A stretch of 20,660 nucleotides of DNA from positions 1-20,660 of IMG/VR virus record IMGVR_UViG_3300007735_000973; one strand, given 5' to 3'. The notes beneath the pieces are model-generated. The model was not told the DNA's origin, made no database searches, and was given only the letters and a program-made list of their open reading frames with translations. Shown here piece by piece: positions 4,407 through 6,938 of the stretch (positions within the stretch are counted from its first letter, which is position 1; each line of letters begins with the position of its first letter). The position numbers were made by a program, and so were the translations under genes. Source of the DNA: a virus.

Positions 4407-6938
4407 TTAGTACTCTATTGAATAATTGCCTCGCCTTTGTAAATAAGTTATTAAATGCGTGTATGCGTCTAAAAGGTCGTCGTGCGACGTTGCCCCTACA
4501 TTGATAATCTGATCAAACAACGCATCAAATTTTCTATACCTGTTAAACACAATTTTTTTATTTTCTAGCAAACCTAGTGTTCCTCTAAAACGAGCTATTT
4601 TATCTCCTCTAAAACCGTTAACTTCATGAATATGTAAATTACTCAATCCCCGCTCATTTAACAAAACTCTTCTAAGGTCCGCCGCTAAACTCGCTTGGTA
4701 AGCAACTGACTCAACTACCAGCGTAACCGTAGAATAAGTCGGAAAATACGTATCATTCTGAAAAGATAAGATCCCCCATTCAAGTAGCATATCGCATAAC
4801 AAATCTATTTTTTCTAGATTTCCAATAGACCGACATTGGTGAGAATCAATAATGAAGTATTTGTCTTTAAGCCTCCCTCCTAAAACAAAAGCTGTATAGT
4901 CACTGGTTTCATTTCTACTTGCGGATAAATCAATACCGATAGCCAACGAATCAAATTCAGTTTCAACTTCAGCTCGAACAAGCAAGTCTGGAGAAACAAT
5001 TAAATCTGTGGTTAATACCGGCTGTTGCTGGTACTGGAAAGCAAATGCCACGGGGTCGAGTTCTTTCTGACCAAGTAAGTATTGAACACTCCACTGCTCA
5101 GGCCAATAACTTACGGGGTTACCTTGATTGTCGTAAGTGACAGCTTCTTGAGTCACTTGTTTCCAATTTTTTTCCGGCGCAAACATTGTTTTATGTATAT
5201 CTAACGGGTGAAAACGTGTACCTAAACAAATAGCTCTACCCCCTTCAAAAATAATTGGTGCGATAACAGATGACCAGTTGTTGTTCATTTCATCTCTAAT
5301 AGCAGGGTTTCGTATATCGGCGCTGCTTTTGATGGGGTCGTCGATGAAACAGTTGCTTACAACGAATCCATTCGCAATAAAATTATGATCTGGATGATCT
5401 ATTTCAAGGTCATAGACAATGTGCGTTCCTCCGCTAATTTCTTCAACTCCGGAAACGGTGAGAGTCTCCCAGCTTTGTCTGTAATCTGATGGTGAGCCAC
5501 ATGGCACTGGCGGCAAAGCGTTATAAGATTGCAAATAATGTTGTTTGACCGGTCGTGATCTATGTGATGAACACACAGGTTCGTTCGCACTGTTCCGTCT
5601 TTTGTAGATAACTTCTTCTCCTTCGTATTGCAACCGACACAGATGAAACTGTCTCGATTTAAAACTATCTTCCTCAGTTTTTTGAAGTCTCCTATATAAC
5701 CCCCATGCTGGTAATTTGGATTGTCCACACCGGTCATTTCTTTGGAATGATTTAAATCTGCACACTGGCGAGAACAAAACTGTGTCGTGTGTGATGTTGG
5801 GCGAAACCTTTTGTTGCAATACAGACACATCTGAGGTTTTAAAATTTGCTTCGCCTGCCCCGCACAAGTCCGAGAACAACACAGAATTTTTTGATCGGTG
5901 CTTAATCTTTGAGCTAAACGGGAAGACACAACCGTGAATATCTCCTGACAACAGGGGCATTGAATCTCTACTTGAAACTTTCCTAGTTTTTGCCAACAAG
6001 TTGTACAGATTCTTTGTGTGCGTTGTTTTTTCTGACCGCAACTTAAACAAACTTTTAGTTGATTCGCAGGCGGATACTCCGATAAGGGTTTGCCCTGTAC
6101 TAATATCTCCCGCCCATTCGTACCCTTGGTCTGTCGTAAGGAAAGGATGCTCGGGAGTTGCGGAAATATAACGGTTATCTGTTGTTCTAATTCGAACAAT
6201 TTTTGAGGAACAACGCCGTGTAGCTGCTGCCACGTCGCTCCAATCAATTTGATGTGTTTTTGAGTTTCTGACAGCAATTTGGAAGCGTCCTGGGTCTGCA
6301 TAAATTTTTTTAATTGGCTGTTCGCCTTGATCTGTCAAAATTAGTGTATCGCCCGTAAGACACAAGTGTGCGCGTTTTGAGGTAATTGATCCTCTAAGAC
6401 CTGCAGCACGTAGTGTGAATTCTTCGTCACCTACTCTAGGAATACCTGCGTATTCAAAATCAATAGACCAACCAACGTCACTTTGCATACCCGGTTTAAG
6501 CCTGCAATTAGGAAATATTTTTTTAAACTCAACTGAGTCAACAATTTGTTTGATTATTCGGCTTTTAGGAATAGCAGTAGCAATATTGTAAGAAATATAA
6601 ATAATCTGAAGGGGCATCTTTGCTGCTGTATGACGCCCGATACACCACGCAGTGAACATATTGAGCACTGTGCTTTTTGCTGATCCTCTGGGACTTAATA
6701 TATCAAGGTTTGATCCTGCTATATCTAATAAGTACTTATTGCTTTCGTTTGTTATCAAGTGTGTATACCACTCCAACATATGTCTTGCTGGAGGTTTATC
6801 TAAAAGAGTACAAAACGTTTGAAAGTCACCTGCTGCTTTGGTGTAAATAGAGTTTTCTCTTGTGCTCGAATCTTCAACAGCGCGAACAGCATTTAACTGA
6901 GCCCGGCGACGATAAGCAAAAGTTTCCCGGCTAGGCAT
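4407..6938 (-). CDS. terL: Terminase large subunit interrupted by an intein
   Basis: This is the packaging motor ATPase and nuclease. The 843-residue precursor divides into extein 1 (1-192), an intein (193-529) and extein 2 (530-843). The spliced protein would be 506 residues, a normal size for a large terminase. The N-terminal ATPase has a Walker A variant LSPRGSAKST (81-90) and a Walker B region HL/CFIDDP, where the intein breaks the protein directly before the strand ending in DD (532-533). The coupling motif may be CLGTRFHP (571-578). The C-terminal RNase H-like nuclease has GIDLSASRNETSDYT (D670), VVESVA (E743) and SHDDLLDAY (D820, D821), the expected acidic triad. The gene starts at ATG 6938, facing a plus-strand cassette across a 54-bp divergent gap. 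Without splicing the ATPase should be inactive, so the intein must splice for the phage to package DNA. Confidence 0.92.
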   Translation of the reverse strand: MPSRETFAYRRRAQLNAVRAVEDSSTRENSIYTKAAGDFQTFCTLLDKPPARHMLEWYTHLITNESNKYLLDIAGSNLDILSPRGSAKSTVLNMFTAWCIGRHTAAKMPLQIIYISYNIATAIPKSRIIKQIVDSVEFKKIFPNCRLKPGMQSDVGWSIDFEYAGIPRVGDEEFTLRAAGLRGSITSKRAHLCLTGDTLILTDQGEQPIKKIYADPGRFQIAVRNSKTHQIDWSDVAAATRRCSSKIVRIRTTDNRYISATPEHPFLTTDQGYEWAGDISTGQTLIGVSACESTKSLFKLRSEKTTHTKNLYNLLAKTRKVSSRDSMPLLSGDIHGCVFPFSSKIKHRSKNSVLFSDLCGAGEANFKTSDVSVLQQKVSPNITHDTVLFSPVCRFKSFQRNDRCGQSKLPAWGLYRRLQKTEEDSFKSRQFHLCRLQYEGEEVIYKRRNSANEPVCSSHRSRPVKQHYLQSYNALPPVPCGSPSDYRQSWETLTVSGVEEISGGTHIVYDLEIDHPDHNFIANGFVVSNCFIDDPIKSSADIRNPAIRDEMNNNWSSVIAPIIFEGGRAICLGTRFHPLDIHKTMFAPEKNWKQVTQEAVTYDNQGNPVSYWPEQWSVQYLLGQKELDPVAFAFQYQQQPVLTTDLIVSPDLLVRAEVETEFDSLAIGIDLSASRNETSDYTAFVLGGRLKDKYFIIDSHQCRSIGNLEKIDLLCDMLLEWGILSFQNDTYFPTYSTVTLVVESVAYQASLAADLRRVLLNERGLSNLHIHEVNGFRGDKIARFRGTLGLLENKKIVFNRYRKFDALFDQIINVGATSHDDLLDAYTHLITYLQRRGNYSIEY
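5352..6362 (-). other. Intein in TerL (splicing blocks A, B, F, G)
   Basis: The element covers precursor residues C193 to N529 (337 codons). Block A is CLTGDTLILTDQG (193-205). Block B is ATPEHPFLTT, with the T-x-x-H at T261 and H264. Block F is VYDLEIDHPDHNFIANG (508-524). Block G is FVVSN (525-529), followed by C530 as the +1 nucleophile. The penultimate residue is serine instead of the usual histidine. Splicing segments add up to about 135-140 residues, a normal mini-intein. The roughly 200 residues between them (about 296-492) look like no known protein in this frame, but the +1 frame there encodes an HNH endonuclease. Insertion is at the Walker B site of the terminase, a functionally essential position of the kind favoured by homing elements. 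Confidence 0.88.
5399..6301 (-). CDS. HNH homing endonuclease encoded in the +1 frame inside the intein
   Basis: The frame runs 300 codons from ATG 6301 to TAG at 5399-5401, offset +1 from the terminase/intein frame. Codons 1-82 overlie the intein N-terminal splicing domain and look like a shadow. From codon 83 on the protein is convincing: zinc ribbons C85-x2-C88 with C99-x2-C102, a second cysteine cluster at 115-118 and 141-146, C159-x2-C162 with C176-x3-C180, a GVDNPNYQHGG segment, then the HNH nuclease with C221-x2-C224, HHIDHDRSNN (245-254), N258 and LCRQCHVAHH (262-271). Such enzymes cut intein-less alleles and drive homing. There is no clear ribosome binding site before ATG 6301. It could be translated by internal initiation or by frameshifting, or be untranslated. 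The terminase frame stays open throughout. Confidence 0.7.
   Translation of the reverse strand: MQTQDASKLLSETQKHIKLIGATWQQLHGVVPQKLFELEQQITVIFPQLPSILSLRQTKGTNGREILVQGKPLSEYPPANQLKVCLSCGQKKQRTQRICTTCWQKLGKFQVEIQCPCCQEIFTVVSSRLAQRLSTDQKILCCSRTCAGQAKQILKPQMCLYCNKRFRPTSHTTQFCSRQCADLNHSKEMTGVDNPNYQHGGYIGDFKKLRKIVLNRDSFICVGCNTKEKKLSTKDGTVRTNLCVHHIDHDRSNNIICNLITLCRQCHVAHHQITDKAGRLSPFPELKKLAEERTLSMTLK

Follow-up and report, generated by a model that had tools for sequence, protein, structure and literature searches.

An intein at the Walker B motif of a phage terminase large subunit, with an HNH endonuclease gene nested in its +1 frame

The window analyzed here is the whole of IMG/VR record IMGVR_UViG_3300007735_000973, a metagenomic contig of 20,660 bases that is possibly a genome fragment and probably comes from a cyanobacterial virus. 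Its minus strand carries a terminase large subunit gene (terL) interrupted by an intein, and a second open reading frame (ORF), encoding an HNH endonuclease, lies inside the intein coding sequence in the +1 frame. Residues 1–192 and 530–843 of TerL are the parts that align with intein-less homologues. The features of the locus, in window coordinates, are as follows.

4407–6938, minus strand: terL ORF of 843 codons, encoding the intein-bearing precursor of the phage terminase large subunit (matches to Terminase_6C, phage terminase and intein models).
6363–6938, minus strand: N-extein, TerL residues 1–192, joined directly to the C-extein in intein-less alleles.
5352–6362, minus strand: intein, 337 codons from Cys1 to Asn337, followed immediately by Cys+1, the first residue of the Walker B motif C-F-I-D-D-P.
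6063–6362, minus strand: N-terminal Hint half with blocks A and B, in which TPEH is the TxxH motif; AlphaFold predicted local distance difference test (pLDDT) score 74–88; best Foldseek matches are inteins.
5478–6068, minus strand: TerL-frame middle, about 197 codons, stop-free with an unconserved protein sequence; predicted disordered linker, AlphaFold pLDDT about 30.
5352–5471, minus strand: C-terminal Hint half with blocks F and G; AlphaFold pLDDT 67–86.
4407–5351, minus strand: C-extein, Cys530 to the stop.
5399–6301, minus strand: +1-frame ORF for the HNH endonuclease, running 300 codons from ATG 6301 to a TAG stop; ratio of nonsynonymous to synonymous substitution rates (dN/dS) about 0.3; AlphaFold mean pLDDT 79.
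5762–6049, minus strand: HNH-protein residues 85–180, a zinc-binding Cys cluster with CxxC pairs; most of the cysteines are invariant family-wide.
5489–5656, minus strand: HNH catalytic core, residues 216–271 (C221, H245, H246, N254, N258, H267 and H271), invariant in relatives down to 28% identity.
6299–6301, minus strand: likely HNH start ATG, found in 12 of 16 sequences; no Shine-Dalgarno sequence.
6245–6247, minus strand: alternative HNH start TTG at HNH codon 19, found in 14 of 16 sequences, near the onset of dual-frame constraint.

Profile searches placed the splicing domain in the TerL frame, as an earlier note made from the sequence alone had proposed for blocks A/B and F/G. The intein N-terminal model TIGR01445 matched TerL residues 193–268 (expectation value (E) 7.5e-12), the intein C-terminal model TIGR01443 matched residues 508–530 (E 6.6e-6), and PF14890 (Intein_splicing) covered residues 200–529 (E 8.3e-13). 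The N side carries the class 1 features Cys1 and block A/B Hint signatures, with the Cys and TPEH invariant in the alignment, and the C side carries block F/G with an N↓C junction (the arrow marks the splice or insertion point) in 9/9 sequences compared. AlphaFold modeling of the TerL-frame intein gave a Hint fold, with pLDDT values of 74–88 over the first 100 residues and 67–86 over the final 40, dropping to about 30 in the intervening stretch; in this model, the TerL-frame middle is predicted to form a disordered loop between two confident Hint halves. The top Foldseek matches for the intein were solved DnaB and CDC21 inteins, with E values of 4.6e-7 to 6.4e-7 (DnaB mini-intein, 4.6e-7).

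The +1 frame matched DZR_2 (E 8e-4), HNH_3 (E 4e-3) and an IscB-type HNH (E 9e-7), in agreement with the zinc-ribbon plus HNH enzyme that the earlier note had read there. The product shows the HNH homing endonuclease motif, HH...N...H with zinc-binding cysteines, and HNH_3/HNH matches were also obtained in relatives. The HNH family, whose members share 28–37% identity, shows no variation at the residues HH, N, N, H and H or at most of the zinc cysteines; the loss of catalytic residues in relatives, which the earlier note had held would speak against its reading, was not seen even at 28% identity. AlphaFold folded the HNH-frame product with a mean pLDDT of 79, and the nearest solved structures in a PDB fold search were the nucleases Cap5 and McrA, which were only moderate matches (E about 2.5e-3). 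The endonuclease does not share the frame of the splicing domain, as it would in a canonical bifunctional intein; every family member has the +1 offset.

A search with the HNH protein yielded 40 loci, and an HNH family profile widened the set. Many locus identifiers (L numbers) are repeat fetches of the same contigs, and each contig is counted once below. The nested arrangement was found in roughly 45–50 independent virus contigs from various metagenomes and in two sequenced phages, Synechococcus phage S-EIVl and Gordonia phage Clown. In tblastn, the TerL query aligned as one piece (residues 1–843) with most loci while the HNH aligned one base later, a frame-by-frame check of the loci returned an offset of +1 every time, and no indel was found in the 337-codon intein over 24 homologues. 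The sequenced isolate S-EIVl (L120, KJ410740.1), whose TerL identity is 47%, shares this nesting. The terminases of S-EIVl and Clown are annotated as plain "terminase", without intein or nested HNH.

HNH family scores showed a clean gap: every intact member scoring above about 80 bits lies within a TerL ORF at an offset of +1, except L032, which is cut by a contig end, and the weaker profile matches are free-standing HNHs or unrelated proteins. The nested set includes the divergent L155/L156, L157–L159, L162, L163, L164, L035 and Clown (L121, NC_055867.1 gp5), in each of which the TerL frame carries signatures of intein splicing or Hint and the +1 frame carries the HNH. Their insertion point is always just before the Cys that opens Walker B (CIIDD, CFLIDD, CGIIDD, CNILVIDD), and across most groups the C-exteins are 16–30% identical, the Hint halves 20–38% and the HNHs about 28–37%. 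In the most distant cases, identity between the TerL exteins is only about 20%. No nested member was found in the prokaryote genome contigs of 84,980 species. The alignment of relatives that the earlier note had called for returned no in-frame version of the element's HNH, and every relative was +1. Long-ORF matches among L198–L229, considered as candidates for an in-frame ancestor, were traced to IscB-like proteins, helicases and further HNH proteins with no relation to this family.

Selection on the two frames was evaluated with a stop test and with substitution rates. For the stop test, synonymous HNH codons were shuffled with protein and codon usage kept (2000 shuffles per sequence), and stops were counted in the 198-codon TerL-frame middle. 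The shuffles predicted 10–14 stops (about 13 in the window), none was observed in the window and 12 divergent relatives, and a zero-stop outcome occurred in 0/2000 shuffles for each of these 13 cyanophage-type sequences, which bears out the suspicion in the earlier note that the open terL frame was improbable by chance. The test agreed in most of the distant families, with Clown (66% GC content) as the weak case (2.7 stops expected, P(0) 0.04). The third frame carries 5–17 stops.

Substitution rates were pooled over seven pairs and calculated per weighted site in the overlap middle. HNH-synonymous changes occurred at a rate of 0.099 when TerL-nonsynonymous and 0.093 when synonymous in both frames (extein synonymous rate, 0.119), whereas HNH-nonsynonymous changes occurred at 0.029–0.030 whether or not the TerL change was synonymous. 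The contrast between 0.03 and 0.099 therefore indicates purifying selection on the HNH, with a dN/dS of about 0.3. Since the HNH-synonymous rate is the same with or without a TerL change, the protein encoded by the TerL-frame middle is effectively neutral except for stops, and its nonsynonymous/synonymous ratio is about 1. This two-frame comparison had been suggested in the earlier note.

The boundaries of the overlap differed from those first described. Among synonymous TerL codons, the differing fraction is 0.52 at intein codons 30–34, falls to 0.14 at codons 35–39 and stays low to about codon 310–320, compared with 0.56 in the extein. From this low variation beginning at intein codon 35, it follows that HNH coding overlaps about 60 codons of the true N-side Hint and reaches block F on the C side; by this measure, part of the overlap encodes two constrained proteins. 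The claim that HNH coding begins and ends almost where the Hint halves end and resume was thus incorrect, with constraint beginning about 60 codons inside the N-half and ending inside block F. The HNH start is an initiation zone (an ATG, or a GTG a few codons on) with no sharp boundary at codon 83, from which the earlier note had counted the enzyme.

Comparison with intein-less and rearranged relatives pointed to a mobile element. L050, with 85.5% identity to the window across about 9 kilobases, lacks precisely the 337 codons and keeps Cys+1 at the junction SKRAHL↓CFIDDP, so the interval 5352–6362 singled out in the earlier note is exactly the intein. More than 50 further intein-less homologues were found, and the junctions of L055 and L064 are likewise empty. 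The inteins are more similar than their exteins (window–L009, 0.868 vs 0.759; L012–L021, 0.848 vs 0.758), and L029 combines an extein of the window's clade (A) with an HNH of the S-EIVl clade (B), a pattern that shows, at the level of sequence, horizontal movement. L048:4094-6175 and L049:4980-7061 are natural mini-inteins that retain the splicing halves and have lost most of the HNH gene through a deletion whose length is a multiple of three. L024, L033/L034 and L048/L049 have broken HNH frames, with TerL remaining open in each case; the splicing frame therefore appears unlosable and the endonuclease dispensable, as for a homing enzyme. In L024:4968-5390, a TAG interrupts the HNH frame and the TerL frame is open, reflecting either recent HNH loss or a single-base error. 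The host gene terL is of an essential type, as expected for a spliced insert. Empty sites, the HNH-deleted mini-intein and the intein/extein discordance together support probable homing.

The +1 site itself varies among empty alleles. The nearest intein-less homologues, L050–L054, have Cys at this position (HL↓CFIDD, HL↓CLIDD), and the more distant L055–L119 have Val (HL/HI↓VIVDD); these residues may be either footprints of lost inteins or permissive target sites.

We consider it highly probable that the locus holds a mobile Walker B intein in TerL whose homing endonuclease is encoded by an overlapping gene and made separately. TerL would be translated across the whole insert, and the Hint halves (about 100 and 40 residues) would fold together around an unconserved loop of about 197 residues. 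Splicing would follow the class 1 pathway (Cys1, TxxH, Asn, Cys+1) and yield an active terminase. On the same messenger RNA, ribosomes would start inside the N-terminal Hint coding sequence, at ATG 6301 or nearby, and read the +1 frame into a separate zinc-finger HNH endonuclease. This enzyme would cut intein-less terL, and repair from an intein-bearing copy would spread the whole element. The overlapping-gene homing element outlined in the earlier note, with splicing independent of endonuclease folding, is well supported by the two open frames, the purifying selection on the HNH and the unconstrained middle with its predicted disorder.

Several observations weigh against this interpretation. 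The penultimate intein His is absent in the cyanophage group, where Ser or Leu takes its place (VSN↓C, VLN↓C); the residue is Ala in L155/L158 and His in L162–L164, L035 and Clown. A penultimate His in block G is common among inteins and is no absolute requirement. In the sequences compared, no Shine-Dalgarno sequence precedes the HNH start, the start codon varies among the 16 sequences, and the region around it shows no unusual lack of RNA structure.

The missing Shine-Dalgarno sequence also favors an alternative in which the HNH is made as a fusion from TerL by +1 ribosomal frameshifting or RNA polymerase slippage, with no initiation of its own, and in the window the ATG is closely preceded by an A7 run (AATTAAAAAAATTTATG). 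This run is limited to close relatives of the window and is lacking in L010, L012, L120 and others, which makes frameshifting less likely. Furthermore, the HNH frame has a start codon in the right zone in 16/16 sequences, as the four that lack the ATG have GTG at HNH codon 5 or 8, and the Tyr codon that supplies the ATG is TAT in 15/16, while the exteins favor TAC (106 TAC vs 67 TAT). We therefore regard a fusion product as unlikely, and HNH translation probably initiates within this start zone, at ATG 6301 or nearby.

The broken copies listed above could also suggest that the HNH ORF is a decayed relic and that the overlap persists only since TerL must stay open, but this is very improbable given the dN/dS of about 0.3, catalytic residues that are invariant across families at 28–37% identity, an HNH frame that is stop-free in most copies, and the suppression of TerL-synonymous changes. 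HNH endonucleases often ride in group I introns, so the stretch might be an RNA intron or another RNA-level insert within the intein, in which case the TerL frame need not be read through. An excised RNA would need none of the openness that the TerL frame shows in every relative despite about 3–15 expected stops, no Rfam group I or II match was found at the gathering threshold, and HNH coding overlaps Hint coding at both ends; we consider an RNA insert extremely improbable. The chance that assembly or sequencing errors, with one base gained and one lost, displaced an in-frame HNH is practically negligible: the window is a metagenomic contig, and the earlier note had pointed to homopolymers near 6065, but the same +1 offset recurs across the contigs and both sequenced phages without intein indels, and the two frames have distinct substitution patterns over the overlap. 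The nested arrangement is, on these comparisons, real and old and not a sequencing error; the in-frame ancestor with two compensating indels, which the earlier note had offered beside two assembly errors, fails with them on the uniform +1 offset and the lack of both indels and in-frame relatives.

Regarding origin, the overlapping-gene intein probably represents an ancient overprinted lineage at one TerL site across unrelated tailed phages, in which dual coding in Hint would lock endonuclease and intein together while the free enzyme stays independent of splicing. At 41% GC, chance would very rarely leave 200 codons stop-free opposite an arbitrary gene, with a probability below 1 in 10,000 at the window's GC; at 66% GC, the value of Clown, the probability is about 4%. 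Because chance openness is far likelier at high GC, this suggests that the arrangement arose once, in a GC-rich phage, and then spread. The tree of HNH proteins, with rough bootstrap values and long branches, resolved neither a parent nor a single origin, and low-scoring free HNHs exist.

Some of these terminases carry a second intein in the P-loop (..PRG-P↓L...N↓SAKST..), which is in frame and has LAGLIDADG-like motifs (L007:3137-6892, L029:3119-6877, L034:3218-6520, L079 and L097). It shares the gene with the overlapping-frame intein in L007, L029 and L034. The distant TerLs L164:1957-5571, L162:2257-5430 and L035:344-3595 contain two inteins, one in the P-loop and one at Walker B with the +1 HNH, and the P-loop intein of L164 has in-frame Hom_end/LAGLIDADG matches.

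Inteins are described as one polypeptide with two jobs, in which the endonuclease folds inside the splicing domain; the TerL lineage moves the enzyme to another frame. The +1 placement would free splicing from endonuclease folding, and the shared codons would tie the endonuclease gene to the intein. The host gene appears to be kept open through the purging of stops over about 150–240 codons, and the several divergent TerL groups offer a natural system for studying how long gene overlaps arise and persist. Such an arrangement is invisible to annotation, and re-reading the "disordered" middles of other inteins in their other frames may be worthwhile. Searches of the open literature turned up no account of an intein whose endonuclease is out of frame; a 2025 preprint by Gosselin, Arsenault and Gogarten on actinobacteriophage inteins with "non-canonical architecture" (10.1101/2025.01.02.630785) could already include Clown, and the novelty of the arrangement is accordingly provisional.

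Among known systems, the canonical bifunctional inteins share several features with the TerL element. The HNH intein of the cyanophage CL131 dCTP deaminase is bifunctional and self-excising (PMC6293099), and splicing is known for inteins at TerL ATPase sites, one of which lies in the Walker B motif of a TerL from a mycobacteriophage (PMC5050341). Like these and the P-loop inteins of L007, L029 and L079, the TerL element has a Hint domain with an endonuclease interrupting it at the usual place, occupies the TerL ATPase site and is mobile. Their endonucleases are in frame, within the excised protein, whereas that of the TerL element would be a separate +1 protein.

Split inteins with free-standing endonucleases ("fractured genes") also keep the endonuclease polypeptide apart from the splicing domain. 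In the TerL element, by contrast, a single uninterrupted ORF spans precursor and intein, with the endonuclease gene overlapping that ORF.

The closest precedent for an out-of-frame enzyme is the ShiLan domain, which, together with the Pacc40 gp60 insert, represents a "hidden" HNH lying out of frame in DNA methylases of actinobacteriophages (Arsenault, Gosselin and Gogarten 2025, PMC11855218). As in the TerL element, the ShiLan HNH is nested out of frame, the host frame is open through the insert, the distribution is patchy and homing-like, and the HNH domain is related (32% identity over about 113 residues). Its authors found no splicing domain and suppose that the insert is retained in a non-essential methylase (PMC11855218), and its offset is +2 (L122), whereas the TerL element is at +1, has a Hint domain that flanks and overlaps the HNH, and resides in a terminase. 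The comparison connects the puzzling ShiLan insert in methylases with a broader habit among phage HNH genes.

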